Assembly (NCBI RefSeq): GCF_029894425.1
Contig: NZ_JARXYJ010000001.1
Coordinates: 7,026,501-7,090,500, forward strand
Source: Streptomyces sp. SAI-127
Lineage (GTDB): Bacteria; Actinomycetota; Actinomycetes; Streptomycetales; Streptomycetaceae
Length of the DNA: 64,000 nt
Direction of reading: 5' to 3'
The position numbers and the translations under genes are program-made. The number at the start of each line of letters is the position of its first letter. Position 1 is the first letter of the stretch. Positions 10,577 to 27,528 of this stretch are shown one piece after another. The notes beneath the pieces are model-generated. The model was given only the letters and a program-made list of their open reading frames with translations. It searched no databases and had not been told where the DNA came from.

Positions 10577-10650
10577 GGGGCGGTAGCTCAGCCGGTTAGA
10601 GCAGCGGACTCATAATCCGTCGGCCGTGGGTTCGAGTCCCACCCGCCCCA
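10577..10650 (+). tRNA. tRNA with CAT anticodon (elongator Met, or Ile2)
   Basis: The 74-nt cloverleaf has the acceptor stem GGGGCGG/CCGCCCC with discriminator A, the anticodon loop CTCATAA and the T-arm GTGGGTTCGAGTCCCAC. CAT can mean elongator Met or, after lysidine modification, Ile2; the sequence alone does not settle which. Its 3' 45 bases recur at 17509 and 26477, so it is the chromosomal attachment site of the integrated elements that follow. It remains intact. Confidence 0.93.
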
Positions 10651-10651
10651 C
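10606..10651 (+). repeat. att repeat 1, inside the tRNA
   Basis: A 46-bp core runs from GGACTCATAATCC through the end of the tRNA plus one base (CCCCAC). It is identical to the copies at 17509-17554 and 26477-26522. It covers the anticodon and T-arms, the usual target of tyrosine integrases. Confidence 0.9.
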
Positions 10652-11171
10652 TGTGCAGGCTTCTGACCTGCGGAAACGTTCATTTTTGGGTGTCGGATCG
10701 TCAACTTCGCCTGAACGGACTGAATCCGCTGCTCGCGAGTTCGGCCTCGTTGTCGGTGTCGGTAGTGCGGATGCCGCTGACCTGCGCGGATGTTCCAGTT
10801 CGCAGCGGTTGAACTTGCGGTACATGGCTCCTGCGGCTGGGTGGGCACTGGATTCTGGACGCTGGCTGGACGCAGGGAAACCGGAAGTGGCCGCTCCGGT
10901 GCTGAGTCATCCACTCTGCCCAGGGGTGTAGCGGAGTCGGCGCGGTGTGGTGGCAACTGGCCTCGCCTGGATCGTGCCGTTGCCGACGTGGCCGGTCGGA
11001 GTAGGGGAGAAACGGCCCGTACTGAAAACGGCCCCAGATCGCACCACGGAGTCGCCCCCCGTGCCTCACGGTTTCGGTGGGGCATGTAAGCCGAGGGTTG
11101 CCGGCGTGCCCCGTTCGGTTGCTCTGACTACGGACTGCCGGAAGCTGACCTTGTTCGGGTGACAGGTGTGG
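10652..11171. other. Right-hand arm of att 1 and non-coding DNA
   Basis: No gene is seen here. The stretch aligns with the sequence to the right of att 2 and att 3. Shared pieces are TGACCTGCGGAAACGT, GGACTGAATCCGCTGCTCG and GGACGCTGGCTGGACGC. TGGACG occurs at 10856-10861 and 10867-10872, 11 bases apart, the same spacing as in the other arms. It is read as a diverged integrase arm-site region. Confidence 0.65.
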
Positions 11172-11480
11172 TCACGCGGCCTGGAGGGCCGGTGTGGTCG
11201 TGACGGTCTCGAATATGGCGACCGCGTCGTCCAGCACGGTGGAGTCCAGCGCCCGGCGGTGCTTGCCCTTGAGGACGCCGGTGGCCTTCACGACCTCGCG
11301 CACGGCCTCGAAGATTGCGGTTGGGGCGGGCGGAACGGGCCAGCCGGCGGCGGAAGTAGGCCAGCAGTGACGGATCGAACGCCGTGTCGTGAAGGCCCAG
11401 CCCACATCCTGCCTTCCACCGCAGATCGCACCGCAGTTCCTGGGCCGTCTCGAAGTCCGATAGTCCCGCTCCGCCCGAAC
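11172..11480 (-). pseudogene. IS1182-type transposase fragment, frameshifted
   Basis: The minus strand shows the N-terminal part of an IS1182-family DDE transposase in two frames. The upstream frame reads FDPSLLAYFRRRLARS and the next reads IFEAVREVVKATGVLKGK followed by RRALDSTVLDDAVA. The switch falls near 11310. Only about 100 residues remain of a protein normally near 500, and no terminal inverted repeats were recognised. It is a dead remnant within the first island block. Confidence 0.75.
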
Positions 11481-11534
11481 GCGTTACTCCAGGCAATCGC
11501 GCACCAAGTTGTTAGCCCGGCGAAGGGAGGCGGT

Positions 11535-12295
11535 TCACTCCTGGCCGCCGAAGACGTTTTGGTCCCAGTCGATGACCGAGCCGGTCACCACACCGCTGCG
11601 GTCGGAGAACAGGAAGGCGACGAAGTCGGCGATCTCGTCGACCTGTCCGAGTTTGCCCATGGGCTGGGATGCGGCGGCCTTCTCCCGCCAGTCGTCCCCC
11701 GCGCCGTGGAAGGCTCGCTGGGTCGCGTCCTCGCCCTCGGTGTCCGTCCAGCCGATGTTGAGGCCGTTGACGCGGATGCGGTCCCAGCGGTGGGCGTGGG
11801 CGGCGTTGCGGGTCAGTCCGGCCAGCCCGGCCTTGGCCGCGGAGTAGGGGCCAAGTAGGGCGGTCCGCCATGGGCGCAGTTGGAGCCGATGTTGACGATG
11901 GTGCCCGGCGCTAGGCGGGCCTTCATGTCGGCCACTGCTGCCTGCATTGCGAAGAAGGGCGCCCGCAGGTTGATCGCCATGTGTTGGTCGAACAGCTCCG
12001 GCGTGGTGTCCAGGAGCGAGCCGCGTGACGTCAGCCCGGCCGCGTTGACCAGGCAGTCGACGCGGCCGCGTGCGTCCACGGTCCGTGCGGCGGAGGCGCC
12101 TGCCTGCGCCGGATCGGCGAGGTCCGCCTGCACGAAAAGCGCACCCGTGTCCGCGGCGAGCTTCTCGCCCACCTCGACCCGGCGGCCGGTGAAGACGACG
12201 GTCGCGCCCTCCCTCACAGCAGCCCGCACGATGCCGGCCCCGACGCCCTGGCTGCCACCGTTGACCAGAACGATCTTGTCCTGAAGAAGTGCCAT
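11535..12295 (-). pseudogene. Short-chain dehydrogenase/reductase, frameshifted
   Basis: This would be a classical NAD(P)-dependent SDR of about 250 aa. The first frame holds the cofactor motif GGSQGVGAG, the NAAG segment and IVNIGSN. The catalytic pair lies in another frame (PYSAAKAGLAGLTRN), followed by the C-terminal part FVAFLFSDRSGVVTGSVIDW. The frames change near 11850-11880, between the Ser and Tyr of the active site, so no complete enzyme can be made unless this is a sequencing error. It lies 16 bases after the PhyH gene and would form an operon with it. Confidence 0.8.
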
Positions 12296-12311
12296 GAATG
12301 CTGTGACCCTT

Positions 12312-13490
12312 TCAGCCGCGGCGGCGCTCGGCGCCGGCCTGCAGTTCCTGGCGAAGTCGGTCGCGGGTCCAGCCCTCGGTTACGGCTTGCCAGACGGTGT
12401 CAGCCTGGGAGGGCGGTGCGAGACCTCCGACCGGGGGGTCGAGGTCCAGGTTGGTGGGGAAGGGGTAGCCGTCAGCAGTGGCGGCGACCACGCGGCGAAG
12501 CCAGTCCTGCGAAACCCCCTCGGCCTTGCGGCGCAGCAGCACCGGGAAGAGCGCGTTCGCCATCGCCTCGCGGTCCACTGTCTCCATGGCGCGGCCGAAT
12601 GCGGAGGAGATCTGCAGCAGGTTGGCCATGCGCCGGATGGCGTTCGAGCGGTTGTGTCCGGCGGCGTGGAAGAGCGCGGGGTTGAAGAAGGCCGCATCGC
12701 CCTTGGCCAAGGGGAGCTGGACATGGTGGGCGTCGAAGTACTCGACGAACTGCGGGAGTCGCCAGGCGAGGTAGCCGGGTTCGTACTTCTGCGAGTGCGG
12801 CAGGTAGAGCGTCGGTCCGGACTCGACGGGCATGTCGCAGTGGGCGACGGCGCCCTGGAGGGTGAGCACGGGCGACAGGCGGTGGACATGCGCCGGATAG
12901 GCCGCAGCGCGTTCCTGGGTGAGGAAACCGAGGTGGTAGTCGCGGTGCACGCTTTGCGCGGCGCCGCCCGGGTTGACGACGTTGACCTGGGAGGTCACCT
13001 GGTAGGCAGGGCCCAGCCAGGCCTCGGAGATCAGCGCCAGCATGTCGTTGGCGTAGTAGTCGGCGAACACCTCGGGGGACCGTACGGCCACCTTGTCCAG
13101 TGCATTCCAGACCCGGTCGTTGGCGCCCGGCTTGGCGAAGTGATCGCCGCGGGCGGTGCCGCCAGCGCGCTCCTCCTCAATCAGCGCGGTGAAGGCCTCG
13201 GAAGCCCGGTCCACGACCGTCGCATCGGGGAAGGCGCCCTTGAGGACCACGATGCCGGGTCCGTCGAGGAGCGCCCGGATCAGCTCGGTCTGTACCTCGC
13301 GTCGGCCGTCGGCGGTGGCCGTAAGGCTACGGAGCCGGTCGCTGTCGTAGAGGGGAACATTCTGCTCAACTCGCTCGGCCAGAGGGTGGTCGGCCGGGTC
13401 GGTGTCCTGCTCGACGAGCAAGCGGAACGCGTCGAGATCGCAGTCGTCCTCGGTCAGCCAAGTCCGTGATCGCGCAGCGGTGAGGGACAT
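12312..13490 (-). CDS. Phytanoyl-CoA dioxygenase (PhyH) family oxygenase
   Basis: This 392-aa protein looks like an Fe(II)/2-oxoglutarate-dependent oxygenase of the PhyH family. The iron-binding HxD motif is in QSVHRDYHLGF. The distal histidine is probably in FFNPALFHAAGHNRSN, and the basic residue that would hold 2-oxoglutarate is just after it. A PhyH enzyme next to an SDR and a divergent LacI regulator suggests hydroxylation then oxidation of a small organic substrate, which cannot be named. It begins at ATG 13490 and shares a 109-bp promoter region with the LacI gene. Confidence 0.82.
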   Translation of the reverse strand: MSLTAARSRTWLTEDDCDLDAFRLLVEQDTDPADHPLAERVEQNVPLYDSDRLRSLTATADGRREVQTELIRALLDGPGIVVLKGAFPDATVVDRASEAFTALIEEERAGGTARGDHFAKPGANDRVWNALDKVAVRSPEVFADYYANDMLALISEAWLGPAYQVTSQVNVVNPGGAAQSVHRDYHLGFLTQERAAAYPAHVHRLSPVLTLQGAVAHCDMPVESGPTLYLPHSQKYEPGYLAWRLPQFVEYFDAHHVQLPLAKGDAAFFNPALFHAAGHNRSNAIRRMANLLQISSAFGRAMETVDREAMANALFPVLLRRKAEGVSQDWLRRVVAATADGYPFPTNLDLDPPVGGLAPPSQADTVWQAVTEGWTRDRLRQELQAGAERRRG

Positions 13491-13599
13491 GCGGGGTCCT
13501 TTCGCGGTGCCTGCATTTCTGCCAGTCTTGAGGGATCACGCCCATCAATCAATCCTCTGAAATAAATCAAAAGTCCATCATCGTCTTCAGGGAACCGTC

Positions 13600-14622
13600 A
13601 TGCGCCACCCCTACCCCATCAGGGAAATCGCCCGGCAGGCCGGACTGAGCACCGCGACGGTCGACCGGGTCCTCAACAACCGGGGCAGCGTCACCGAAAG
13701 CACGACCAGGGAAGTGCATCAAGCGATCAAAGACCTGGACCGTCAGCAGACCCAGGTCCGCATCGGGGGCCACACCTTCATGATCGACATCGTGATGCAG
13801 GCACCAGAGCGGTTCTCCGCCGCCGTACGCGAGGCACTCGAGGCCGAAATGCCTGCCCTGCACCCCGCCGTCGTCCGCTCACGTTTCCACTTCCGCGAGA
13901 CCTGCCCGCCCGACGAGATGACCGGCATCCTCGACAAGATCGCCAAGCGTGGCACGCAGGGCGTGATCCTCAAGGCTCCCGACGTGCCTGAGGTCGCCGC
14001 CGCCGTAGGGCGACTGTCCGCGGCCGGCATCCCTGTGGTCACCCTGGTGACAGACCTTCCCCACAGCGCGCGCCTGGCCTACGTCGGCATCGACAACCGC
14101 GCGGCAGGCGCCACCGCCGCCTACCTCCTCGAACAGTGGCTCGGCGACCGCCCCGGCAATGTGCTCACCACCATCAGCCGGGGCTCCTTCCGAGGCGAGG
14201 AGGAACGCGAAATGGGATTCCGCAGCGCGATGCGCCTCGCGCAGCCCAGACGTTCTCTCGTGGAGGTCACCGACAGCGACGGTCTGGACGCCACCCAGCG
14301 CGACCTGGTGCTCGAGGCTCTCAAGCGTGACGAGGACATCGTCGCGGTCTACTCGATGGGAGGGGGCAACTTCGCCACGCTGGACGCCTTCGACGCGCTG
14401 GGCAGGCCGTGTGCCGTCTTCATCGCCCACGATCTCGATCACGACAACATCAGTCTCCTGCGCGAGCGCCGCCTCTCTGCGGTGCTCCACCACGACCTGC
14501 CCCAGGACGTCCGCCGCGCTTGCCAGACCATCATGCGCGCCCACAAGGCACTGCCGGACGACGGCCAGCCCCCGCCCTCGGCGATCCAGGTGGTCACGCC
14601 GCTCAACCTGCCGCCCGTGTGA
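13600..14622 (+). CDS. LacI-family transcriptional regulator
   Basis: This 340-aa regulator has the N-terminal helix-turn-helix of LacI proteins (IREIARQAGLSTATVDRVLNN) and a periplasmic-binding-protein-like ligand domain with the subdomain features VILKAPDVP, VTLVTDLPHS and YVGIDNRAAG. It is divergent from the PhyH/SDR pair, so it most likely controls that pair in response to a sugar-like or polyol ligand. The spacer between them is the only AT-rich stretch nearby (around 13540-13590), but no clean palindromic operator was found. AGGGAA precedes the ATG. Confidence 0.88.
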   Translation: MRHPYPIREIARQAGLSTATVDRVLNNRGSVTESTTREVHQAIKDLDRQQTQVRIGGHTFMIDIVMQAPERFSAAVREALEAEMPALHPAVVRSRFHFRETCPPDEMTGILDKIAKRGTQGVILKAPDVPEVAAAVGRLSAAGIPVVTLVTDLPHSARLAYVGIDNRAAGATAAYLLEQWLGDRPGNVLTTISRGSFRGEEEREMGFRSAMRLAQPRRSLVEVTDSDGLDATQRDLVLEALKRDEDIVAVYSMGGGNFATLDAFDALGRPCAVFIAHDLDHDNISLLRERRLSAVLHHDLPQDVRRACQTIMRAHKALPDDGQPPPSAIQVVTPLNLPPV

Positions 14623-15083
14623 CGGCCGCATCGTTCCTCGGATGAAACCGCTGGCGCCGCCAGAACTCGGTAGTGGGTGCCACGGAGCCCTGCGCAGTTC
14701 GCGGCGGCCCGGCTGCCATGCGGCAAGGGCCTCGGGGTCGTCGAAGACCATCACAGTGGCCGTCACACCGAAGCGCGTATCCGTGAGTGAGCAGCCTTCA
14801 GGCTGTCAGGGCAACGTCACTGGTGAATGAGGTGTGTGGGCTGTCCGGCGACAGCCGTACAGACGCGGTCTGAGGTCTTCATAGCGCAGCCGGGGCAGTG
14901 GGCGGCGGAGCAGGTGGTGGCGCGGCAGCGTGCCAGTGAGGCCGGTAAGCGGGCTCGACCTCACCAAGGGCATTCGGTCGCCAGTGTCAGGGAGGGACAG
15001 TCGGTCGATCTACAACACCACGGTGGCTTGGAAGAGTTGGACGACAGCCTCCGACACATGTGTTGGGGACGGGCCTTGTCCGG
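14623..15083. other. Gap without a recognised gene
   Basis: No convincing gene is present. A short inverted repeat (CAGCC-TTCA-GGCTG, 14789-14802) could end transcription from the LacI side. Small frames on both strands do not match a family I know. The stretch joins the PhyH/LacI block to the decayed pca block. Confidence 0.5.
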
Positions 15084-15699
<616 letters not shown>

Positions 15700-15703
<4 letters not shown>

Positions 15704-16900
15704 AGAACGTCTACATCGTCGACGCGGTCCGCACACCGGTCGGCCGCTACAACGGCGGCCTCTCCTCGGTGCGCCCGGACGACCTGGGAGCCCACGCGAT
15801 CCGTGAACTGCTCGGCCGTACACCCGACTTGGACCCGGCCCGGATCGAGGACGTCTACTTCGGCAACGCCAACGGCGCCGGCGAGGAGAACCGCAACGTC
15901 GGCCGTATGGCCGCGCTGCTGGCCGGACTGCTGACCAGCGTGCCCGGCGTGACGGTCAACCGCCTGTGCGCCTCCGGCCTCGAAGCCGTGATCCAGGCGG
16001 CCCGCGCGATCGCTCTCGGGGACGCCTCCTCGCCGTGGCCGGTGGCGTGGGGTCCATGACGCGGGCGCCGTACGTGCTGCCCAAGTCCGACAAGCCCTTC
16101 CCCGCCGCCCACACCGACCTGTACTCGACCACGCTGGGCTGGTGCATGGTCAACCCGCGGATGGAACCGCAGTGGACGATCCCGCTCGGCGAGTCGGCCG
16201 AGCTGATCGCCGAAAAGCACAAGATCACGCGTGAGCAGCAGGACGAGTTCGCGCTGGCCAGTCACCGCAAGGCGGCCGAGGCCCAGGAAGCGGGGCTGTT
16301 CGACGCCGAGCTCGCGCCGGTGCCGGTCCCGCAGCGCAAGGGCGAGCCGGTCTTGTTCGGTGCCGACGAATGTGTACGGGCGGATGCCTCACTGGAGGCG
16401 ATGGCGAAGCTCAAAGCCGTCGTTCCGCAAGGACGCCGGCACGGTCACCCCAGGCAACGCCTCACCTCTCAACGATGGGGCCGCCGCCCTGCTGCTCGTC
16501 GACGACGACGGCCTTGCCGCGACCGGTCGCGAGCCGCTGGCCCGGATCTCCGCGACCGGGGTCAACGCCCTCGACCCGCACTACTTCGGGCTCGCCCCCG
16601 TGGAGGCCGTCAACCGGGCACTCGCCAAGGCGGGCAAGGGATTTGACGATCTGTCAGTACTGGAACTGAACGAGGCCTTCGCCGCCCAGGTGCTCGGCTG
16701 CGTGGCCGAGTTGCCCGAGTTCGAGCCGGCGATCCTCAACCCGCAGGGCGGCGCGATCGCGCTGGGCCACCCGCTGGGTGCCTACGGCCCACCTGGCCGG
16801 CACGGTCGCCCATCAACTCGCCCGCAGGGGCGGCGGGGTGGGCGTGGCCACGCTGTGCATCGGAGTGGGCCAGGGTCTCGCTCTCGTCCTCGAACGTTAA
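15700..16900 (+). pseudogene. pcaF: 3-oxoadipyl-CoA thiolase, multiply frameshifted
   Basis: This is a thiolase of about 400 aa spread over several frames. The first frame runs from KNVYIVDAVRTPVGRYNGGL to the active-site cysteine segment VNRLCASGLEAVIQAARA. A second frame holds SMTRAPYVLPKSDKP and HKITREQQDEFALASH. A third holds LNDGAAALLLVDDDG, LELNEAFAAQVLG and GGAIALGHPLGA. A fourth gives the end, VATLCIGVGQGLALVLER and TAA. At least three indels separate the parts (about 16040, 16430 and 16785). Thiolase would cleave 3-oxoadipyl-CoA to succinyl-CoA and acetyl-CoA. The gene is inactive. Confidence 0.88.
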
Positions 16901-16918
16901 CGAAACGCAGGAAGCCTC

Positions 16919-17100
16919 ATGACTCTCACCCAGCACGACATCGACCAGGAGATCGCCGCCGAGCACGCCGCCTACGAGAAGCGGCTCGCCGACGGCGCCC
17001 CCGTCGAGCACCAGCCCCGCCGGGACTAAGCGCCCTACCGTTCCTCGGTGCTGCGGCACCCGAAGCAGCCGCCGATCACCATCGAGGGCCCGTCGCCCCA
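16919..17100 (+). pseudogene. pcaH: Protocatechuate 3,4-dioxygenase beta subunit, stop and deletion
   Basis: Eighteen bases after the thiolase remnant, an ATG opens TLTQHDIDQEIAAEHAAYEK, which matches the start of actinobacterial PcaH. Codon 37, expected to be Tyr before APYRSSVLRHPKQPP, reads TAA (17027-17029). The sequence remains PcaH-like for about 20 more codons, then departs near 17085. The order pcaJ-pcaF-pcaH is the usual order in Streptomyces pca operons. PcaH would open the ring of protocatechuate with its PcaG partner, which is missing. The bases up to 17231 include a plus-strand tail (DALLPIGPDRPLDVDVRLAA) from an unidentified gene. Confidence 0.75.
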
Positions 17101-17231
17101 AGGCTCCGGCCTGCGCCGCGCTTCTCTCCCGGCTGACCGACGCCCTCCTTCCGATCGGCCCCGACCGCCCGCTGGACGTGGACGTACGCCTGGCAGCCGA
17201 ACTGCTCGACCGGGTGTCAGGTGAGGTCTGA

Positions 17232-17508
17232 ATCTCTCCGCTCAATGCATGGGTCTCGGCGCTTTGAGCGGGGTTGCTCGCGGGTGCACAGGATTGCGGT
17301 CGCTGCGCGTCCGAAGGGCAATCCGCTGGGCATGGTTGTGTGACTCCGGCCTCCAGCTGGGGAAAGGAACGCGTTCTGGACGCAGGTTGGACACAAGGAT
17401 CGGAAAAGACTGACAAGGACTGAGGAGGGGTGAGGTGCCAAACCCCTTCTGAGCTGGGAAAACTGCCAAGATTGGCATTGATCGGCAAGGGTCGCCAAGA
17501 TCCTCAAA
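17232..17508. other. Left-hand arm of att 2
   Basis: No gene is seen. From about 17372 to 17508 it is nearly identical to 26340-26476, the left side of att 3. Shared pieces are GTTCTGGACGCAGGTTGGAC, GGGGTGAGGTGCCAAA and GATTGGCATTGAT. TGGACG at 17377 and TGGACA at 17388 are 11 bases apart. This is the other arm of the recombination site. Confidence 0.75.
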
Positions 17509-17554
17509 GGACTCATAATCCGTCGGCCGTGGGTTCGAGTCCCACCCGCCCCAC
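17509..17554 (+). repeat. att repeat 2 (tRNA 3' end without a tRNA)
   Basis: A 46-bp exact copy of the 3' part of the CAT tRNA. The 5' half of a tRNA is absent, so this is an attachment-site footprint, not a gene. It has an arm on each side, as expected at the junction of two tandem elements. Confidence 0.9.
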
Positions 17555-17790
17555 CATGCACCCCTGTGACCTGCGGAAACGTCTCATCTGGGGTGCGGAT
17601 TCAGGGCGTTGGTCCATGGGGCTGAATCCGCTGCTCGTGAGTTCGACTCCGCTGCCATCAGCGTTAGTTGAGGTCGCTCTGACCTGCGCAGACGTGTCGG
17701 CCCACGGCTGGAGGATGGCGTCGTGGGTGGGCTGTGCGAGCGTCTGGACGTCACATCTGGACGCTGGCTGGACGCGAGGATCCGGAAGTG
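17555..17790. other. Right-hand arm of att 2
   Basis: Nearly identical to 26520-26715 except for a deletion there of about 45 bases after the att core. TGGACG occurs three times in direct order at 17745, 17758 and 17769 (spacings 13 and 11), a regular array expected for arm-type integrase binding. Confidence 0.75.
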
Positions 17791-18849
17791 GTGCCCAGGG
17801 ACCTTCGAGTGGGCGGGCCTGCCGGGTCGGCGGGGCACGGACGCAGTCCGAATGGCGTGCGGTCCGAATTGGGAGGCGAAAACAGCCCGTACTGGAAACG
17901 GCCCAGAGAGGACCGACAGGCGGGGCGGGAGCGGCCGGGCTGCGCGGCTCCCGCACATACAGCCGCCGGTCTTCCTGCTCATCCCCTTCCTCCCGGGGCA
18001 GCGACGCCTCCCGCTGAGGCGAGACGTGGTCCGCTGCCCAGGGCCGCCGAGCGCGTGCTGCTGGTGATCGCCGACGACGTGACGTGGCTCGACAAGGCCG
18101 ACGCGGCCGTCGTCGGGTTCGTCGTACGGCGTGTCACGGACGCTCCGATGTCGAGCACGACCTTGCCCGACAGCGCGGCGGCGGGAAAGCTCCCGATAGG
18201 GAGCCGGCGGGATGCTCACCACGACCCGGTCACCGGCGTGGGCCGCCTCCTCGGGTGTCGCGGCGCGGGCTCGCCGGCCGAGCTCGGCCAGCGTCTGGGG
18301 ACCGCGGGATGTGGACAGTAGGACGTCGGCCGACGGCGATCGCGAGCCGGGCGAGCTTCGTGACGAACGACGGCCTGCTGCGCCCCGATCTCACCGCCGA
18401 GGATCTGGTTCTGTTTCAGCGGCTCCCTGAGCCAGGTCGCCCTGACGACCGGCGACAGTCACCCGGGCCAGGGGCGCCGCCTCCTGCGCATCTCCCTCGA
18501 CCGCCTCAGCCAGCCGCAACACCGCACCCCTACGAGTCTCGGTGACAGGGAGTACAACTCTCACCGCAGCGGGCGCTGTTCGCGCGAAGACGCCGGATCA
18601 AGAAGAGGAGACCGACCTCTTGCGCGAGGTCGCTGGCTCCGTTCGCCGACGATCCGGCCGTCAGCCAGCTAGGAGAAGTTCACGGCCTGCACCGGGATCT
18701 TGTTCCCGAAGTGTCACCTGCTGACCACCAGGTGACCGCCACTCGCCGGGCGCTTCGTCGGATCCCAGGAAACGATGGGAGACGTCACCGCTCGCAACCA
18801 GCCACGACACGCCGCGCGAAACACCCGAACCGCGCTGGAAGGACATGTC
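17791..18849. other. Decayed DNA with regulator fragments
   Basis: No intact gene is seen in about 1 kb. Short stretches look like broken genes. A LAL/LuxR-type ATPase piece lies at 18046-18145. A TetR-like piece (NDGLLRPDLTAEDLVLFQ) lies around 18362-18415. A minus-strand stretch around 18170-18300 (HAGDRVVVSIPPAP) is unassigned. Frames change often, which fits a graveyard between the att arm and the carboxylesterase. Confidence 0.5.
18046..18145 (+). pseudogene. LuxR/LAL-type ATPase fragment
   Basis: The stretch VLLVIADDVTWLDKADAAVV then GFVVRRV resembles the Walker B region of large LuxR (LAL) regulators. Nothing before or after in frame belongs to that family, so only about 30 codons survive. 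Confidence 0.5.
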
Positions 18850-20286
18850 ATGACCGCGACCGCGCCCAAGGCTCCGACTGCACCAGGGGTGCGGTCCTGG
18901 TGGGGGATCCCGTACGCCACCGCCGAGCGGTACCGTCGCCCCGTGGTCGCGGATTTCGATCCGGAACGCCCCTATGACCGCAAGGGCGTTGTCTCTGTCC
19001 AGCCCGACAGCGGCGATTGGCTCGAAGCGGACAGCGGGATGGGCGAGGACTGCCTGAACCTGAACGTGTGGGCTCCCGAGCAGCCGGCCGACAAGACGCT
19101 CCCGGTGACCGTGTACATCCACGGCGGCGGATTCGAGTTCGGCGCGAACACCCAGATCACCTCGAACGCCGCCGGTCTCGCCGCGTCCGGGCGCGTGGTG
19201 AGCGTGTCCGTCAACTACCGGCTCGGCGCCCTGGGCGCGCTCTCGCTCTCCCAGTACGGCGGGCGGCTCGCCGAGGCCAGCAACCTCTTCCTGCAGGACA
19301 TCATCGCCGCGCTGACCTGGGTCAAGCGGAACATCGCCCACTTCGGCGGCGACCCCGACAACGTCACCGTCTACGGCCATAGCGCTGGCGCCTACTCCAC
19401 CTTCGGGCTGCTCGGAGCTGCCTCCGCCGACGGCCTGTACCGGCGCCTGGCCGGGTTCTCCGGCGGGCCCGCCCGCAGCATCCCGGCCTGGTGGGCCGAG
19501 GAGCTCGCGCACCTGTTCGTCACCGAACTCGGCGTGGCGGACAACCCGGAGAAGCTGCTCGACCTCGACGCGGTCTCCCTGAGGGACGCCCTGCGCAAGG
19601 TCGCCCCGACGGACCTCGGAGTCCGCGGCGGGGTGGACAACAAGGCCACCGGCGTCGTCCTGGACATCGGGCAGCCCGGCGCGGTGGTGCACGCCCATCC
19701 CATGGACGTCCTGGCCTCGGGCGCGCACCGCGATGTCGACGTGCTGCTGAGCATGGCGAGTGACGACATGGGGTGGTGGGTGGCGAACGACCTCGAACGG
19801 TTCGACCCGCACACCCTCGACGGCGTCGTCGACGAGGTCGCGGGGTGGCGTATTTCCCGCTCCCGTGCGCAGAAGATCGTCGACGTCTACGACCAGGGCG
19901 GCCGTACCCCGGTCGAGGTCCGCGCCGCGGTCATGGCGGACTACCTCTTCGCGCTCCCGGCCGCCCGCGGCGCCCTGGCGCACGCCGCCGCGGGCGGCAA
20001 CGCCCAACTCCTGATGATCGGGCCCGCCGAGGGCGCGCCCGCCGTGCACGGCAGCGAGATGTACGCCCTCGTCGGGCAGGAACAGCCGGGCCGCAGCGCC
20101 GAACAGGCCGAGCGTGACACACGGATCCGCGACATCGTGCTCGACTTCGCCACCGGCGAGCAGTCCCGTCTGTGGCCCGCCGTCACGGACGAACCCACCT
20201 CGGGAAGCGTCGGCAACCCGCCCTTCGAGGCCACCGCCCACTACCAGCAGGCCCTCGGCCTGTGGGAGGGCATCGACCGCCCCTGA
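18850..20286 (+). CDS. Type B carboxylesterase
   Basis: This 478-aa alpha/beta hydrolase belongs to the carboxylesterase/para-nitrobenzyl esterase family. It shows the early GEDCLNLNVWAPE segment, the oxyanion-hole glycines in YIHGGGFEFGA and the nucleophile elbow VYGHSAGAYS. A late HGSEMYALVG stretch is the likely position of the catalytic histidine. No signal peptide is present, so it should act in the cytoplasm on ester substrates. ATG 18850 is chosen because GGAAGGA lies just before it; a longer frame to 18775 lacks a ribosome site. It is the first intact gene of block 2. Confidence 0.87.
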   Translation: MTATAPKAPTAPGVRSWWGIPYATAERYRRPVVADFDPERPYDRKGVVSVQPDSGDWLEADSGMGEDCLNLNVWAPEQPADKTLPVTVYIHGGGFEFGANTQITSNAAGLAASGRVVSVSVNYRLGALGALSLSQYGGRLAEASNLFLQDIIAALTWVKRNIAHFGGDPDNVTVYGHSAGAYSTFGLLGAASADGLYRRLAGFSGGPARSIPAWWAEELAHLFVTELGVADNPEKLLDLDAVSLRDALRKVAPTDLGVRGGVDNKATGVVLDIGQPGAVVHAHPMDVLASGAHRDVDVLLSMASDDMGWWVANDLERFDPHTLDGVVDEVAGWRISRSRAQKIVDVYDQGGRTPVEVRAAVMADYLFALPAARGALAHAAAGGNAQLLMIGPAEGAPAVHGSEMYALVGQEQPGRSAEQAERDTRIRDIVLDFATGEQSRLWPAVTDEPTSGSVGNPPFEATAHYQQALGLWEGIDRP

Positions 20287-20414
20287 CGGTCGTCGGGCGA
20301 TCCCGAGATGCGCAACGGCGCAGGGTCACCACTGACTGATGACCCGGGCACCTGTGCCTGGAGCCCGGCTCCGCCTTCACATTCCCGGCAGACGAACACA
20401 ACAAGGAGCTCGGC

Positions 20415-21438
20415 ATGAGCCAACCGACAGCAACCGGCGGCGCCGCAACGGCGACGATGCGGGCCGTCGTCGTCACCCGGCCCGGCGGCCTCGACGCACT
20501 GGAGATCGAGGACGTGCCGGTGCCCGTCCGCAAGCCCGGCTGGGTGCGGATCAAGGTGAAGGCGTTCGGCGTCAACGAGTCCGAGGTAACCACCCGCAAG
20601 GGTGAGTCGGACGCGGTGGTCACCTACCCGCGCGTGCCCGGCATCGAGGGCGTCGGCGTGGTCGACGAGGCCGACGAGGACAGCGGGCTGCGGCCAGGAC
20701 AGCAGGTGGCCACGATGATGGGCGGCATGGGCCGCTCGTACGACGGCGCGTACGCCCAGTACGTCACCGTCCCCGCCGGGCAGGTCATCCCGTTCGAGAC
20801 CAGCCTGCCGTGGGACGTCGTCGGCGCGCTGCCCGAGATGTTCCAGACCGCTTACGGATCCCTGACCCGCGGCCTGGACCTCAAAGCCGGGCAGACGCTG
20901 CTGATCCGCGGCGGCACCTCCACGGTCGGGCTGAGCGCGGCCACCATCGCGAAGGACCTCGGCGCCACCGTCATCTCCACCACCCGCAGCCCCGGCCCGG
21001 GCCGGGGAACTGCGGGCCGCGGGCGTCGACCACCCCCTCGTCGACAACGGCACCCTCGCCGACCAGGTGCGCGAGCTGATCCCAGACGGCGTCGACGCCG
21101 CCCTGGAACTGGTCGGCTGCTCGGTCCTCCCCGACACCCTCCGCACCGTCCGTCGGCACGGCACCGTCTGCTTCACCGGAGCCCTGGCAGGCCAGTGGTC
21201 CATCCCGGACTTCACCCCGTTCATGATCCCCTTCGGGGTACGCCTGACCTCCTACGGCGGTCAGGCCAGCGACCTCCCGGCCGACGTCTTCGCCCACCAG
21301 CTCCAGGCCATCGCCGCCGGACGCCTCAACGTCCCGGTCGCGAAGGTCTACCACGGCCTGGAACAAGTCCGAGACGCCCAGGCCGACCTCGAATCCGGTA
21401 CCACGCCGGGCAAGCACGTCGTCGTCCTGGACGACTGA
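20415..21438 (+). pseudogene. Zinc-binding-dehydrogenase-like quinone oxidoreductase, frameshifted
   Basis: This is a medium-chain dehydrogenase/quinone oxidoreductase of about 340 aa split into two frames. The first half has the GroES-like domain (VKAFGVNESEVTTRKGE, RVPGIEGVGVVDEA) and the start of the cofactor domain (LLIRGGTSTVGLSAATIAK). The second half, ELRAAGVDHPLVDNG through HVVVLDD, is in another frame. The shift falls in a GGCCCGGGCCGGGG run near 20995, so a sequencing error is possible. GGAGCT precedes the ATG. It lacks the zinc ligands, as quinone oxidoreductases do. Confidence 0.82.
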
Positions 21439-21505
21439 AAGAAACACATCCCCTGGTTCGCCGACAGGCACCGGCTGGGGCATGCACAAAGAAAGGGAGG
21501 ACGCC

Positions 21506-21937
21506 GTGGGCGTCAACAAGGAAGAAGTCAGCAAGACCCTCATCGAGCTGGAGAAGTCGTACAACGAACGCTTCAGCGTCGGCGACCCGGGCGGCTACCT
21601 GGACGGCTTCGCGGACGAGGTGAGCTACTTCGACCCGATCCTCGAGAACATCGTCGTCGGCAAGGAGAAGACCGTCGCGTGGCTGTCGTCCATCTACTCC
21701 AACCCGCACATCGTGCGCAGCGAGTACCTCAACCCGACGGTCCACGTCGGCGACAGCGGCGACTTCGCCGTCCTGGCTTACAACCTGAAGACCTACGTGC
21801 TCGACGAGGACGGCAACGAGAAGCAGCGGCGCGCCTGGAACGCCACGCACGGCTACCGGCTCATCGACGGCCAGTGGCTCATTGTGCACTCCAACTGGGC
21901 GTTCTCCCAGACCGTGACCGAAAGGACCGCCTCCTGA
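21506..21937 (+). CDS. SnoaL/NTF2-like protein
   Basis: This 143-aa protein of the NTF2/SnoaL-like (DUF4440) fold starts with a long helix (SKTLIELEKSYNERFSVGD). Strands typical of a cone-shaped barrel follow, and it ends GYRLIDGQWLIVHSNWAFSQ. Such proteins are small-molecule isomerases or cyclases, or ligand carriers; no active-site pair is certain here. GTG 21506 is preferred over ATG 21482 because AAAGGGAGG ends five bases before it. A damaged second copy of its C-terminal end lies at 22496-22585. Confidence 0.8.
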   Translation: MGVNKEEVSKTLIELEKSYNERFSVGDPGGYLDGFADEVSYFDPILENIVVGKEKTVAWLSSIYSNPHIVRSEYLNPTVHVGDSGDFAVLAYNLKTYVLDEDGNEKQRRAWNATHGYRLIDGQWLIVHSNWAFSQTVTERTAS

Positions 21938-22103
21938 CCGCGGCGCAGCCTGTGGTCCCCAGCCTGACCGGGTTCCTCCGGCATGGCGAGCGGGGCCGCC
22001 TGTGCCGCCGGCATCCGGCCAGTGGTCGTCCCAGCCGCACCGATCAGCTCCGAGACACGCCCCGCGACACCAGCGCACCCGAATGACCGAACGTCAGGAT
22101 CCC

Positions 22104-22511
22104 ATGATCACCGACACCGCAACCGACGCCTACAGCTCCTTCACCGTGACCGACCTGGAATCGACCCGCACCTTCTACCGCGACGTACTCGGGCTGCAAG
22201 TCGAAGACCGGGACGCCATGCTCACCATCCGCCTCCCCGGCGGTGCGAGCACCGTCGCGTACGCCTCCCGCAACCATCAACCAGCACGATTCACCATCCT
22301 CAACATCGTCGTCCCTGACCTCCCCAGTACTGTCGCGGACCTCACCCGACGCGGCGTGGATTTCGAGCACTATGAGGGAGTGCAGATCGACTCAGACGGG
22401 ATCTACCGCGCCAACGGCCCCTGGTTCGCCTGGTTCACCGACCCCTCCGGCAACGTTCTTGCCGTCTGCGAACGCGACCTCCGCACGGCCGGCGCGAGGC
22501 GTACCGGCTGA
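22104..22511 (+). CDS. VOC-family (glyoxalase-like) protein
   Basis: This protein of about 135 aa has the paired beta-alpha-beta-beta-beta units of the vicinal oxygen chelate fold. The first unit runs from SFTVTDLESTRTFYRDVLGL. The second ends in WFAWFTDPSGNVLAVCE, which carries the usual C-terminal metal-ligand glutamate. The role may be metal-dependent modification or binding of a small molecule. AGGA lies before ATG 22104; ATG 22083 is an alternative. The last dozen residues run into DNA that, in another frame, encodes an SnoaL C-terminus, so the normal 3' end may be replaced. Confidence 0.78.
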   Translation: MITDTATDAYSSFTVTDLESTRTFYRDVLGLQVEDRDAMLTIRLPGGASTVAYASRNHQPARFTILNIVVPDLPSTVADLTRRGVDFEHYEGVQIDSDGIYRANGPWFAWFTDPSGNVLAVCERDLRTAGARRTG

Positions 22512-22585
22512 TCGACGGCGAGTGGCACGTCGGGCACTCCCACTGGGCGTTCACGCCGACCGCGAAGGCGGCCGTCTCCTCCTGA
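22496..22585 (+). pseudogene. SnoaL-like C-terminal fragment
   Basis: In a frame different from the VOC gene that it overlaps, the sequence reads EAYRLIDGEWHVGHSHWAFT and ends TGA. This parallels YRLIDGQWLIVHSNWAFS at the end of the intact SnoaL-like gene. It is the stump of a second, diverged copy. Confidence 0.7.
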
Positions 22586-22612
22586 CGGGCAAGGCGCCTG
22601 TGCCGCGTTGCG

Positions 22613-23548
22613 TCACGCGTCGGTCCTCGCCTCGCGGGTGGCGAAGGCGGCCGGGGTGAGACCGGTGCGGTCGCGGAAGAAGCGGCCGAAGTTCGCGGGG
22701 TCGGTGAAGCCGAGGTGGGCGGCCACCGTCCGGGCGTCCCATCGGGCACCTCCCAGCAGGCGCCGGGCTTCGAGGAGGCGGCGTTCGTCGATGAGTTCAC
22801 GTACCCCCTTGCCGGTGGCGTCCCGGGCGGCGCGGCTGAGGGTGCGGACCGAGCAGTCGAGCAGCTCGGCGTAGTCCGCGGCTTGGTGCAGCTCCCGGAA
22901 GTGCAGTTCCAGGGCGTCCAGGAAGCGCACGTACCGGTCGATGCGGCCCGTGTCGGCCGTGGCTGTGGCGATGGGGGTGATGCCCGGGGAGTTGGTCAGG
23001 CGCAGCAGCAGCGATTCGAGCAGGCTGCGGCGCAGGGCGTGGTGGATGTCGAGGGGGCGGCGCCCGAGTGCGCGGTGTTCGTCCAGGAGCTGGAGCGCCG
23101 TCTGCTGGAGCCAGGCGGCGTCATCGGCTTGCGGGCTCAGCACGGCCGGGGCGTCGTGCGCGGTGAGCGGGGCCAGCAGACGGGCGATGTCGGGCCGCAG
23201 TACATCTGGTTCGAACAGGACGAACGGGCCGCGGGCGGAGCCGGGCGGATGAAAGCACAGCGTGTGTCCGGGACGCACCCAGAGCCACTGGCCGGGGGCG
23301 ACGGTCCGCGTGACGTGGTCGACGTCGTGCAGCAGCTCGCCCTCGGTGACCGCGATGAGGTAGTGGAAGGTGGCGCGGACCGGACGGGGCGGGCTCCATG
23401 GCCAGTCGGCGTGCTGGGCGAAGAAGTCCTCGATGGTGTTCACCTCGAGGCCGTACGGAGTACCGACCGGGGGCTGGAAACCGTACAGCGGAACCGCGGC
23501 CGGTTCAGCCCGTCCGCTTGGGCTGGGGTGTCGCTTGTCGACCATCAT
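22613..23548 (-). CDS. AraC-family transcriptional regulator
   Basis: This 311-aa regulator has an N-terminal cupin-like sensing domain (VTRTVAPGQWLWVRPGHTLC) and a C-terminal double helix-turn-helix. The first helix-turn-helix is around YAELLDCSVRTLSRAARDAT and the second around DARTVAAHLGFTDPANFGRF, with the FFRDRTGLTPAAF signature. It is convergent with the esterase/VOC group and may control it or the YjbR pair. The start is ATG 23548. A short inverted repeat just upstream could be an autoregulatory site. Confidence 0.9.
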   Translation of the reverse strand: MMVDKRHPSPSGRAEPAAVPLYGFQPPVGTPYGLEVNTIEDFFAQHADWPWSPPRPVRATFHYLIAVTEGELLHDVDHVTRTVAPGQWLWVRPGHTLCFHPPGSARGPFVLFEPDVLRPDIARLLAPLTAHDAPAVLSPQADDAAWLQQTALQLLDEHRALGRRPLDIHHALRRSLLESLLLRLTNSPGITPIATATADTGRIDRYVRFLDALELHFRELHQAADYAELLDCSVRTLSRAARDATGKGVRELIDERRLLEARRLLGGARWDARTVAAHLGFTDPANFGRFFRDRTGLTPAAFATREARTDA

Positions 23549-23553
23549 GTGTC

Positions 23554-23567
23554 CGCAGTTTACTGCG
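23554..23567. promoter_or_regulatory. Inverted repeat upstream of the AraC gene
   Basis: CGCAG-TTTA-CTGCG is a perfect 5-bp dyad five bases from the AraC start and inside the divergent spacer to the YjbR gene. It could be an operator; this is position-based inference only. Confidence 0.35.
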
Positions 23568-23675
23568 CCTTATACCGGTTTCGGGGAGAGAGTGGGAGGT
23601 GCCGCCACGACCGTGCGGCGCGCCACTCGCGTCATGGGGTGCCCAGCCCGCGCTCACCCGATGAAGGAAACGTTC

Positions 23676-24071
23676 ATGAACGGAACGGCCCTGCACAAGA
23701 CCGCCGCCGCCTGCGCCGAGGAGCTTCCCGGAGCTCGGCTGGAGCATCCCTTCGGTGACGACTGGGAGGTCTTCAAGGTACGCGGCAGGGTGTTCATGCT
23801 GATGACCGAAGTCCCGGGGCGTCCCGTCGTGATCCTCAAGGCGGACCCCGGCGAGGCCGAGGCCCTGCGGGAGCAGTACAGCCACATCACCCCCGGCTAC
23901 CACATGAACAAGAAGCACTGGATCACCCTGGAGAGCGGAGAAGGCGTCGACAAGGAGCTCATCAGGGAACTCGTCACCGACTCCTACCGGCTCGTCGTCG
24001 CCCACCTGCCCAAGGCTGAGCGGCCCGTCGACCCGCACACCTACGGCGCCGGCGCACGGGCGGCCCGATGA
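23676..24071 (+). CDS. MmcQ/YjbR-family protein, copy 1
   Basis: This 131-aa YjbR-like (CyaY-fold) protein has the family features LEHPFGDDWEVFKVRGRVF, ILKADPGEAEALREQY and the ending HMNKKHWITLESG. The family is described as DNA-binding or MmcQ-like, but its function is poorly established. ATG 23676 has GAAGGAAA six bases upstream; ATG 23661 is less likely. Its stop overlaps the ATG of a second YjbR gene (ATGA). Confidence 0.85.
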   Translation: MNGTALHKTAAACAEELPGARLEHPFGDDWEVFKVRGRVFMLMTEVPGRPVVILKADPGEAEALREQYSHITPGYHMNKKHWITLESGEGVDKELIRELVTDSYRLVVAHLPKAERPVDPHTYGAGARAAR

Positions 24072-24436
24072 GCGCGGCCGGTGACCGGCTCCAGGACACC
24101 GCCCGCCAGGCGGCCCTGGCCCTCCCCGACGTCAGCCACGGATACCCCTTCACCCCGGGACTCGACGTGTACAAGGTCGCGGGCAAGGTCTTCCTGATCG
24201 TCACCGACGATCCGGACGAGCAGATCATCACGGTCAAGTGCGAACCCGAACACGCCCGCGCGCACGTACGCGACTACGCCTCGATCACACCGGGCCGCTA
24301 CCTCGACAAACGCCACTGGATCTCGCTCGGGCCAGGACCCGGCATCACCGAGCGACTGGTCACCGACACGGTCGAAAATTCCTACGACCTGGTCGCCGAG
24401 CGGCTGCCGCGACGCGACCGCCCCGGTGCCCGATGA
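24068..24436 (+). CDS. MmcQ/YjbR-family protein, copy 2
   Basis: This 122-aa paralogue of the preceding gene follows the same pattern: VSHGYPFTPGLDVYKVAGKV, VKCEPEHARAHVRDY, RYLDKRHWISLG. The two are only moderately alike, so the duplication is old or they came as a pair. ATGA coupling implies equal expression and perhaps a heterodimer. Confidence 0.85.
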   Translation: MSAAGDRLQDTARQAALALPDVSHGYPFTPGLDVYKVAGKVFLIVTDDPDEQIITVKCEPEHARAHVRDYASITPGRYLDKRHWISLGPGPGITERLVTDTVENSYDLVAERLPRRDRPGAR

Positions 24437-24536
24437 ACGCCGCGAGCTTTCCCACGAGCGGCTGAGCCGACGCCTGTCAGTGCCCTGTGCACGGCTCGCC
24501 ACGTCCGCACACGCCCGCCTGCGACCCGAGAGACCG

Positions 24537-25256
24537 ATGGAACCGACCGAAGCGACCCTGCCGCTCTTCGACGAGGAGCCCGCCCGGCCCCTCGCCGACC
24601 GCCTGCGCCCCACCCGGCTGGAAGATGTCGTCGGGCAGGACCACCTCCTGGCCCTGGACGCCCCGCTGGGCCGCATGGTCGCCCAGCAGCGCCTCAGCTC
24701 CGCCATCCTGTGGGGCCCGCCCGGCGTCGGGAAGACCACCATCGCCCGGCTCCTCGCGGACGCCGGCAACCTGGCCTTCGAACCGGTGTCCGCCACCTTC
24801 TCCAGCGTGGCCGACCTGCGCAAGGTCTTCGCCACCGCACGAAGCCGACGCGGCATCGGCCAGGGCACCCTGCTGTTCGTCGACGAGATCCACCGCTTCA
24901 ACCGCGCCCAGCAGGACAGCTTCCTGCCCTACGTCGAGGACGGCACGGTCACCCTGATCGGCGCCACCACGGAGAACCCGAGCTTCGAACTCAACGGTGC
25001 CCTCCTGTCCCGCACCCAGGTCCTCGTCCTCAAACGTCTCGACGAAGCCGCGCTGTCCACGCTCCTCGACCGCGCCGAGCAGCTCACCGGCCACCGCCTG
25101 CCCCTGGACGACGACGCCCGCAGCGCCCTGATCGCCATGGCGGACGGCGACGGCCGCTACCTCCTCAACATGGCCGATCAGATCCAAGCCCTCCCGGACA
25201 CCGAAACCACCCTGGACACCGCCGGGCTCGGCGATGAGACCTACGTCCTCGGCTGA
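24537..25256 (+). pseudogene. rarA: Truncated RarA/MgsA AAA ATPase
   Basis: The first 230 residues are a good RarA-type replication-recombination ATPase: RPTRLEDVVGQDHLL, Walker A WGPPGVGKTTIARLLADAG, Walker B LLFVDEIHRFNRAQQD, sensor 1 IGATTENPSFELNGALLSR and a lid region ending NMADQIQALPD. RarA proteins are normally about 430-450 aa, and the tetramerising MgsA C-terminal half is missing. The frame ends in GDETYVLG plus stop, which is identical to the tail of the nearby HigA-type gene. The gene has been cut and joined to another gene's 3' end. A chromosomal full-length copy probably exists elsewhere. Confidence 0.85.
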
Positions 25257-25262
25257 TCCGAT
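25228..25262 (+). repeat. 35-bp direct repeat, copy A
   Basis: TCGGCGATGAGACCTACGTC and the next 15 bases match 26121-26155 at 34 of 35 positions. It supplies the last codons of the truncated rarA. Confidence 0.85.
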
Positions 25263-25436
25263 TGACGCGCTGCGGCCCAGGTCCATGCATGGTCCGGTGG
25301 ACAAAATCGCCTTTTGGCGTTGGGGATGATGCCTCCATCCTCTTGGCTGACCGGGCCGGGCCGGGTCCCACGCCTGCCATTATGACGCCAGTGGTGTATG
25401 CTACCAGTGTAATAAATTGCAGGTGGGGGCAGGTGC
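25263..25436. promoter_or_regulatory. Promoter region of the HigBA-type pair
   Basis: This is the most AT-rich stretch near the pair. It has a TATGCT-type -10 candidate at 25397 and the partial dyad GGTGTATGCTACC just upstream of the toxin gene, a plausible site for antitoxin autoregulation. Confidence 0.35.
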
Positions 25437-25814
25437 ATGGCTTGGGAGATCGTCGTGGTCGAGCCGGCTCTTTCGTGGCTTCACGGACTGCGCCGCACTG
25501 ACCGCGACACGCTGATTCAGGTCAGCCAGGCTGTCACTGCTCTTCAGGAGGAAGGACCCGCGCTGGGCCGGCCCCTGGTGGACACGATCAAGGGATCAGT
25601 GCTGCCGAACCTCAAGGAGCTCCGGCCCGGCTCGGCAGGGGCCACGGAAGTGCGGTTGCTGTTCGTGTTCGACCCGAACCGCCAGGCCGTGATCCTGGTC
25701 GGCGGTGACAATGCGGGCAACTGGTCCGGCTGGTACCGCGTCGCGGTGCCCCAAGCGGAGCAGGCATACGCGGAGCATCTGAAGCGAATCGATGGAGAGG
25801 ACGGGGCACGATGA
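25437..25814 (+). CDS. RelE/HigB-type toxin (Gp49-like)
   Basis: This 125-aa protein resembles HigB/Gp49-like (DUF891) ribosome-dependent mRNA interferases. It shows EIVVVEPALSWLHGLRRTD, then GRPLVDTIKGSVLPNLKELR and the core strand EVRLLFVFDPNRQAVILVGG. The C-terminal helix with YAEHLKRI is typical. It precedes and overlaps an XRE antitoxin gene by ATGA, the toxin-first order of HigBA modules. Such pairs stabilise integrated elements, in keeping with its place at the right end of block 2. Confidence 0.85.
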   Translation: MAWEIVVVEPALSWLHGLRRTDRDTLIQVSQAVTALQEEGPALGRPLVDTIKGSVLPNLKELRPGSAGATEVRLLFVFDPNRQAVILVGGDNAGNWSGWYRVAVPQAEQAYAEHLKRIDGEDGAR

Positions 25815-26149
25815 CTGATCACCTCAAGGACCCGCAGGCCGTCTCCTGGGGAGACCTGGCCGAGGATTTCGCCTTCACCGATGCCGAAAAGGACCAGATC
25901 CAGAAGGGGGTGCAGGCGATGGTCCTGGCCTCCCGTGTGCACCGCCTCGCCGAGTTGCGGAAGCGGCAGCACACCACACAGGTCCAGGTTGCCGAAGCCA
26001 TGGGCGTCACCCAGGCCCGCGTCTCACGCATCGAGAAGGGGCAACTGGAGCGCAGTGAGGTCGACACCCTCGCTGCCTACGTCAAGGCGCTCGGCGGCAA
26101 GCTGAAGATCGTCGCTGACTTCGGCGATGAGACCTACGTCCTCGGCTGA
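25811..26149 (+). CDS. XRE-family HigA-type antitoxin
   Basis: This 112-aa protein has a helix-turn-helix (TQVQVAEAMGVTQARVSRIE) followed by KGQLERSEVDTLAAYVKALG. It would bind the partner toxin and repress its own promoter. ATGA overlap with the toxin gene couples translation. Its last eight residues (GDETYVLG) and the bases after the stop are duplicated at the end of the truncated rarA. Confidence 0.88.
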   Translation: MTDHLKDPQAVSWGDLAEDFAFTDAEKDQIQKGVQAMVLASRVHRLAELRKRQHTTQVQVAEAMGVTQARVSRIEKGQLERSEVDTLAAYVKALGGKLKIVADFGDETYVLG

Positions 26150-26155
26150 CCCGAT
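26121..26155 (+). repeat. 35-bp direct repeat, copy B
   Basis: This is the native position, in frame with the antitoxin gene; copy A ends the truncated rarA at 25228-25262. Confidence 0.85.
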
Positions 26156-26476
26156 AGACAGACTGAGTCCAGGATCATGCGCAGCCCGGCAGACGAACTC
26201 GTCAGGGACAATGCTCCACCTGGGTCAAGGGGTGGAGCATCATCTCGTCGGTAAGGAAATCCGCTGCGCATGGTTTCGAGACCCTCTCACCAACTGGGGA
26301 GAGCGTCCTTGAACCAGGTGTGCGTGCCCATCGGGGCCCGGTTCTGGACGCAGGTTGGACACAAGGATCGGAGAAGGCTGACAAGGGCTGAGAAGGGGTG
26401 AGGTGCCAAATCCCTTCTGAGCTGGGAAGACGGCCAAGATTGGCATTGATTGACAAGGGTCGCCGAGATCCTCAAA
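26156..26476. other. Left-hand arm of att 3
   Basis: No gene is seen. From about 26340 it matches the left arm of att 2 almost base for base, including TGGACG at 26345 and TGGACA at 26356. Confidence 0.75.
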
Positions 26477-26522
26477 GGACTCATAATCCGTCGGCCGTGG
26501 GTTCGAGTCCCACCCGCCCCAC
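26477..26522 (+). repeat. att repeat 3
   Basis: Third exact 46-bp copy of the tRNA 3' end. It closes block 2 and has arms on both sides. Confidence 0.9.
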
Positions 26523-27508: not shown

Positions 27509-27528
27509 GGTGGCCTCCTCCACTCGGG

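Follow-up and report, generated by a model that had tools for sequence, protein, structure and literature searches.

A tandem array of islands at the tRNA-Met gene

The window analysed here, a stretch of 64,000 nucleotides from Streptomyces sp. SAI-127 (contig NZ_JARXYJ010000001.1, positions 7,026,501 to 7,090,500), contains an array of cargo islands that lie side by side at a tRNA-Met gene and in which no integrase was detected. The tRNA-Met (CAT) gene (10577..10651, forward strand, identified with ARAGORN) is the integration target and is kept whole. Its 3' 46 bp form the attachment (att) core, which is present in three exact copies on the forward strand: copy 1 inside the tRNA gene (10606..10651), copy 2 at 17509..17554 and copy 3 at 26477..26522, with spacings of 6903 and 8968 bp. 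The first-pass annotation of this DNA had placed the tRNA 3' part exactly at 10606, 17509 and 26477, and a 46-mer search confirms this. No fourth copy is found in the window at up to 3 mismatches, and the recurrence expected by chance is 0 in 100 window shuffles. Across the 10.72-Mb genome, these three are the only core-covering matches above 90% identity; the remaining matches to the core region are either about 60 bp long at 74-86%, and probably represent other tRNA genes, or short chance hits. Two tandem tRNA-Asn genes lie just upstream of tRNA-Met (10257-10409), with nothing unusual seen in them.

The similarity between copies 2 and 3 extends beyond the core, over about 135 bp to the left (17373-17508 and 26341-26476) and about 190-240 bp to the right (17555-17793 and 26523-26715), at 95-96% identity. 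We name the left flank the P arm, which is the right end of the preceding island, and the right flank the P' arm, which is the left end of the following island. Each arm holds a tandem repeat of 8 bases with an 11-bp period, located about 203 bp from the core in island left ends and about 134 bp before the core in right ends. Island 1 (10652..17508) opens with a P' arm (10652..10890) that resembles 17555-17793 in two pieces (86% and 71%) and carries at +203 an arm-type site, an 11-bp-period repeat of the CTGGAC class (10854..10878); it closes with a P arm (17373..17508, arm site 17375-17399). Island 2 (17555..26476) runs from a P' arm at 17555..17793 (arm site 17756-17780) to a P arm at 26341..26476 (arm site 26343-26367). 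Because copy 3 is followed by a further P' arm, 46 bp shorter (26523..26715, arm site 26678-26702), and by a VapBC module, a third island begins there, its right end lost. All of these ends are on the forward strand. Chromosomal synteny with the two closest relatives, G140 and G291, resumes at the right border (27971..28218), at window position 27971 and at about 28212-28218 (G, C and L numbers are our labels for genomes, contigs and loci).

The array is thus composed of two complete islands, each flanked by cores and paired arms, and the left part of a truncated third island without a right end, up to about 27.97 kb. The first-pass annotation had ended the array at 26522 with two blocks, which is superseded by three members, the third truncated, and a chromosome that resumes near 27971; what it says of the att arms, that each block retains the two, is true in an even stronger sense, with P and P' arms beside the cores.

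Search for mobility genes

Twenty open reading frames (ORFs) between 11.1 and 27.5 kb were searched against Pfam, and ten of these also against PHROGs. No integrase, excisionase, relaxase, FtsK/Tra or phage structural family was found among the twenty, with the reservation that a small excisionase could escape detection. Capsid, packaging or lysis families, and the modules of actinomycete integrative and conjugative elements (AICEs; Int, Rep and FtsK-type Tra), were also not found among the ORFs searched. The phage-related hits among these ORFs are a Gp49-like toxin, helix-turn-helix (HTH) proteins, an esterase, a DNA-binding family and a clamp-loader family. In the host genome, five PF00589, two PF07508 and two PF00239 matches are present, all of them outside the window, where these searches gave neither an integrase nor a serine recombinase match. 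The earlier description of the blocks as lacking an integrase, excisionase or tra gene is therefore upheld by the genome-wide family searches and by the 20 ORFs; the integrase that it proposed to seek elsewhere in this genome by the 46-bp core was not found.

Contents of the site in related genomes

The flanks of the tRNA gene were compared across the genus, with 357 genomes scored and 35 more left unscored. The closest relatives, G140 and G291, are 96% identical to the window over 2445 bp at the tRNA flank; bounded by the same chromosomal sequence on either side, their fillings measure about 19.2 and 21.4 kb. That of G140 includes a different island, 3.2 kb long, and a VapBC end that is only 86% identical, and the filling of G291 has no stretch matching the window among the lengths listed (200-250 bp or more). 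These differences indicate that the site has been refilled since the strains parted. Similarly, the start of the third island is 86% identical to G140 while the flank is 96% identical, so that it was not simply inherited. An identical 16 kb in relatives, which the first-pass annotation had named as the outcome that would count against it, is not what these two strains hold. We further note a second att copy in G140 (L114, C2:10066000-10085500), with a P arm, an island-type left end and a small integrase remnant; its position is far from the tRNA, some 0.43 Mb short of the end of a 10.5-Mb contig.

A 421-bp query consisting of the core and arms matches 389 of 392 genus genomes, mostly via the tRNA itself. 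The best match reaches E<=1e-20 in 77 of the 391 other genomes, in the weakest of which the alignment extends only some 15 bp past the core, and 54 of these reach <=1e-30 (manual count). Two candidates per genome were scored, and copy numbers are therefore lower bounds. Similar ends flank other cargo in other genomes, and the compared island units span 1.4-11.2 kb. In the phage and plasmid collections, no record covers 80% of the 421-bp query; the matches listed (30 of 86 phage and all 34 plasmid records) comprise the core plus at most some tens of bases.

Cargo and ends can also part from one another. The islands of G192 and G238 have 7.0 kb of cargo in common at 94.4%, compared to 81.9% over a 773-bp flank (L061:3467-11906 and L059:3392-11266). 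Their arm classes nevertheless differ, on the left as well as on the right, although within each island the two arms match. The sharing of island 2 with G351 (88.5-94%) was considered as proof of transfer and rejected, since the flank is 85.5-87% identical and the gap is too small.

Cognate integrases and the elements that carry them

A regular-expression search for tyrosine integrases in the fetched stretches was dropped, as its hits look by eye like out-of-frame noise. A tblastn search with two integrases over 61 genome stretches and the window places the integrase family in four of those stretches, intact in G225 and G181 and as fragments in G227 and G140. The G225 integrase lies 129 bp after the tRNA-Met core, and the G181 integrase adjoins a core with a P arm. 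Relatives at E<=1e-60, many of them distant, occur in 126 of 392 genus genomes. Among the 30 best genus loci (L141-L170), a core is nearby in 16, 14 of which include the tRNA body; no core is seen at the other 14, the close relatives L142 and L154 being two of these. A set of 19 named loci, retrieved with the CTGGAC-class integrase and all from Streptomyces, includes 15 with a core and tRNA body, 2 with a core alone and 2 with no core. This set is not fully independent, as L201 is the G011 locus and L205 and L214 share their N-terminus with L149 and L148.

The elements that bear these integrases are large. The distance from the first core to the next is 90.6 kb in G225 and 97.3 kb in G011, and the fetched pieces contain no other core in the interval; match positions in G252 and G261 place a core with a P arm roughly 90-100 kb away. 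We had first taken the partner of about 90-100 kb to be an integrative and conjugative element (ICE), an idea that was dropped after PHROGs searches of the G011 element returned phage hits: ParB, terminase large subunit (phrog_38, 6e-106), portal, tail and endolysin genes. The G225 element is largely colinear with it. Judged by gene content and colinearity, the integrase-bearing elements in the two cases examined are temperate phages and not ICEs. In the phage collection, the record that comes nearest is that of Streptomyces phage TurkishDelight (93.6 kb), whose integrase is 36.5% identical.

Two arrangements of these elements are noted separately. The CTGGAC-class prophage of G011 (L171 / L201, C2 about 426 kb) lies at a core copy with 1 mismatch that lacks the tRNA body, and in G011 the tRNA-Met flank is matched on a different contig. 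G117 (L183, C1:5678500-5690000) contains two family integrases about 98 kb apart, the first near tRNA-Met and the second by a further core, and the two are perhaps tandem prophages.

Arm classes and integrase N-termini

Arm sites were read at fixed distances, since automatic finding picked wrong repeats at many right ends; the left arm of G011_C2 was taken from the automatic finder. Five arm classes were named by eye: CTGGAC (the class of the window), TGGGAC, AGGGGCC (the class of the G225 integrase), TGAGGCC and GGGGAC. The arm sites of the islands resemble those at the ends of integrase-bearing elements with the same tRNA core. In a sample of 24 hand-picked elements, comprising 20 islands and 4 integrase-bearing elements (of which G252 and G261 are unannotated), left and right arms agree at >=7 of 8 bases in 19, where the shuffled mean is 7.7 and 0 of 20000 shuffles reach this number. 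Among the islands alone, 15 of 20 pairs match (7 of 20000 shuffles), as do 13 of 18 without the window (19 of 20000 shuffles).

Arm sequence correlates with the N-terminal 75 residues of the integrase (rho 0.66, 0 of 2000 permutations, n=13), and at lower values with the core-binding part (rho 0.33, 17 of 2000) and the catalytic part (rho 0.40, 4 of 2000) for the same n=13. The 19 named loci show a similar grouping: 17 have a core and 16 of these a clear tandem arm. The TCTGGAC loci (L201, L202, L203 and L211) include all three with a readable N-terminus that resembles that of G011. The comparisons suggest that arm class tracks the N-terminal domain of the integrase, and the window's class, CTGGAC, is matched by integrases from S. 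pseudovenezuelae GGS1, S. xylophagus NRRL B-12029 and two further species.

Island ends and phage-type ends

The arm site lies about 102 bp from the core in left ends of integrase-bearing elements, compared to about 203 bp in islands, and left ends were typed by this distance into 37 island-type and 17 phage-type, with a few probable misassignments. Over the 245 bp that follow the core on its right, similarity is seen in 534 of 666 island pairs and in 44 of 136 phage pairs, as opposed to 35 of 629 island-phage pairs. A decayed core-like stretch is present in 22 of 37 island-type left ends and in 1 of 17 phage-type ones (<=50 of 1000 shuffles). In the window this stretch lies near 17625-17650, within the left end of island 2, and of 1000 shuffles, 0 do as well for copy 2, 1 for copy 3 and 51 for copy 1. 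It looks like the trace of an earlier att site incorporated in the island end. Given this grouping of left ends and the core-like stretch, the islands do not resemble phages that have lost their middle, and they appear instead to form a lineage of their own, spread through Streptomyces.

Cargo genes

Pfam assignments place metabolic and regulatory genes in both complete islands. Island 1 contains a piece of a short-chain dehydrogenase/reductase (11813-12295), a PhyH dioxygenase (12312-13490), a LacI-type regulator (13600-14622), a CoA-transferase piece (15284-15703) and a thiolase over two frames (15163-16646). With a threshold of E<=1e-150, the PhyH-LacI pair is found in 151 of 382 genus genomes; its best match elsewhere, in G274, is on a different contig from the tRNA-Met array of that genome. 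The cargo of island 1 was accordingly set aside as saying little about mobility, the pair being ordinary accessory DNA that many members of the genus have. The host genome also contains another such pair (G000:C1:1784900-1787134), which is 75% identical to the one in island 1.

Island 2 contains a carboxylesterase (18775-20286), an alcohol dehydrogenase over two frames (20415-21438), a SnoaL-like protein (21482-21937), a glyoxalase-fold protein (22002-22511), an AraC-type regulator (22613-23548), two YjbR proteins (23370-24436) and a piece of a RarA-like AAA ATPase (24426-25256). Adjoining its right end is a probable toxin-antitoxin pair (25437..26149, forward strand), consisting of Gp49/HigB-like and HTH/HigA-like proteins, and this toxin-antitoxin-like region is common to the right end of the G295 island at 85%. 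The truncated third island encodes VapC (26823-27236) and VapB (27233-27523) on the reverse strand (26823..27523). The left end composed of P' and VapBC also opens islands in G125 (92.8%), G274 and G157, and the VapBC module occurs within islands of G351 and G252.

A 50-bp repeat (86%) at 25228-25277 and 26121-26170 of the window ends the RarA-like and HigA-like ORFs, which share the peptide GDETYVLG, and related stretches lie near island right ends in G261 and G192. The repeat is perhaps a joint of nested right-end pieces.

Discussion

The anatomy of the islands, the pairing of their arms, the integrases at the same core, the differing fillings of the site and the island parts common between species are most readily brought together by cargo islands without an integrase, members of a lineage widespread in the genus, that are moved by matching phage integrases, and we consider this explanation rather probable. 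Each complete island would be held between the tRNA core and a matched arm pair (left at about +203, right at about -134 bp). On infection by a phage whose integrase has the same arm class, or with such a phage resident in the cell, this integrase and its putative excisionase would recombine the island ends, and the island could then leave, enter, or travel joined to a neighbouring phage. Excision and integration would proceed in trans, and the route between cells might be joint excision with a prophage, packaging in situ or transduction. As this genome has no such integrase, the array is likely immobile at present, barring the arrival of a matching phage.

Several observations weigh against phage-driven movement. 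The host genome contains no member of the cognate integrase family (best match E 1e-4), and some cargo genes are broken in both islands. None of the four arrays with an integrase-bearing element (G225, G252, G261 and G011) has a matched helper beside its island, as the arm class of that element differs from that of the next island in all four. The arm agreement in 19 of 24 elements comes from hand-picked cases, and the shuffles do not remove relatedness among them; the five pairs that score under 7 are G295, G253, G227, G011_C2 and G108. By eye, G108 has CGGGAC on both sides despite its low score, and G351, which scores 7, looks mixed. G295 and G351 may be fusions, since the right end of G295 is that of island 2 (85%) and G351 has the appearance of a composite of island 2 and the VapBC element. 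The core-binding and catalytic parts of the integrase also correlate with the arm, which indicates that the signal is partly common descent. Finally, helpers other than those of G011, which is annotated, and G225, which was compared with it, could be ICEs.

Some of these points are also what would be expected of frozen remnants, that is, of prophages or other elements that have decayed by deletion, with ends that survive by chance and nothing that moves. Broken cargo in both islands and the missing cognate integrase agree with such a history, and the integrase fragments by cores in G227 and G140 indicate that decay does happen. This explanation nevertheless seems unlikely to us, since no phage structural gene was found among the ORFs searched, the left ends are mostly unlike phage-type ones, the arm pairs are still matched, the closest relatives hold different contents and the G192 and G238 cargo is more alike than the flank. 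Less likely again is that the islands are classical cis-mobilisable elements (CIMEs), which would have arisen from an ICE or AICE at tRNA-Met and would rely on such an element to be mobilised. Their anatomy does fit the definition, with att sites kept and integration and transfer genes lost (PMC5704250, excerpt), and accretion of CIME and ICE is known in Streptomyces from TR1/TR2 (PMC8369830, excerpt). However, the two integrase-bearing elements examined are phages, the remaining ones being unannotated and so possibly ICEs, and no relaxase or Tra gene was found among the ORFs searched in the blocks. The first-pass annotation had called the blocks CIMEs that could be moved by an outside integrase; the side-by-side islands and the matching integrase family found elsewhere agree with this, while the ICE origin implied by the name is not supported, given an integrase carried by phages in two cases and island left ends that group apart.

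Two further explanations dispense with phages altogether. Homologous exchange or duplication of an att segment, in place of site-specific insertion, might have produced the repeats, as the similarity of copies 2 and 3 covers about 375-420 bp (95-96%); but no other long repeat is common to islands 1 and 2, and similar ends flank different cargo in other genomes, which makes this very improbable. Tandem cargo units between repeated sites, with no enzyme found inside, also recall an integron-like array worked by a resident chromosomal recombinase. We give this equally little credence, because the repeats are tRNA 3' parts with paired long arms, and PF00589 gives only five matches in this genome, all outside the window, with the best match to the cognate family at E 1e-4.

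Islands moved by phage integrases would have partial counterparts among known systems. CIMEs are defined by flanking att sites and the loss of integration and transfer genes (Pavlovic 2004; Bellanger 2011; as cited in an excerpt of PMC5704250). Islands 1 and 2 have this structure, though a small excisionase could escape detection, and they resemble CIMEs in their flanking att sites, in the absence of integration or transfer genes among those found and in tandem accretion at one gene. They differ in an apparent helper that is a temperate phage in the cases examined, in a left-end architecture of their own and in the several arm classes that stand side by side. The toxicogenic region TR1/TR2 of Streptomyces scabiei likewise includes a Streptomyces island called a CIME by its helper element, with an internal att site, but as described in the excerpt it involves an ICE helper and the aviX1 site (PMC8369830), in contrast to the tRNA-Met gene, 46-bp core and phage-type integrase here.

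Most known phage satellites encode an integrase together with regulators or packaging genes. The islands would share with such satellites (phage-inducible chromosomal islands or PICIs, PICMIs, P4-like elements, and Mulch/Flayer in Streptomyces; PMC10690885, excerpt) a dependence on phage, and differ in that an integrase, satellite regulators and packaging genes of their own were not detected among the ORFs searched in these blocks. Integron cassette arrays without an integrase (CALINs) are also cargo arrays worked in trans by the integrase of another element (PMC11389934, excerpt), unlike the present array in that tRNA cores with phage-type paired arm sites replace attC, attC folds not having been searched separately. 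A comparable setting is that of cyanophage P-SS2, whose putative attP matches a Prochlorococcus tRNA-Met island with repeated partial tRNA copies; insertion sequence (IS) elements are prominent there, and the excerpted text does not describe paired arm classes or an island lineage (PMC2784084). Tandem arrays with one shared integrase are said to be unstable (PMC3218068, excerpt), which would fit the refilling seen at the tRNA-Met site. A literature search, with subscription journals outside its reach, found no paper that appeared to describe this set of islands.

More broadly, and only tentatively, a genus-wide island lineage may persist and move over the long term on borrowed phage integrases, with short arm codes that set the match between phage and island, cargo that can take on ends of a different code, and tRNA-Met arrays that act as a cassette store worked by phages. 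Islands by tRNA genes that lack a recombinase are easily mistaken for dead remnants. In the present case the sequence itself points to candidate enzymes, and the arm sites predict which phage integrase would move which island, so that mobilisation in trans becomes directly testable. If this explanation is true, matched pairs of integrase and arm would be available for the study of arm-site reading by tyrosine integrases, and phages would gain a role in moving metabolic gene sets among Streptomyces.

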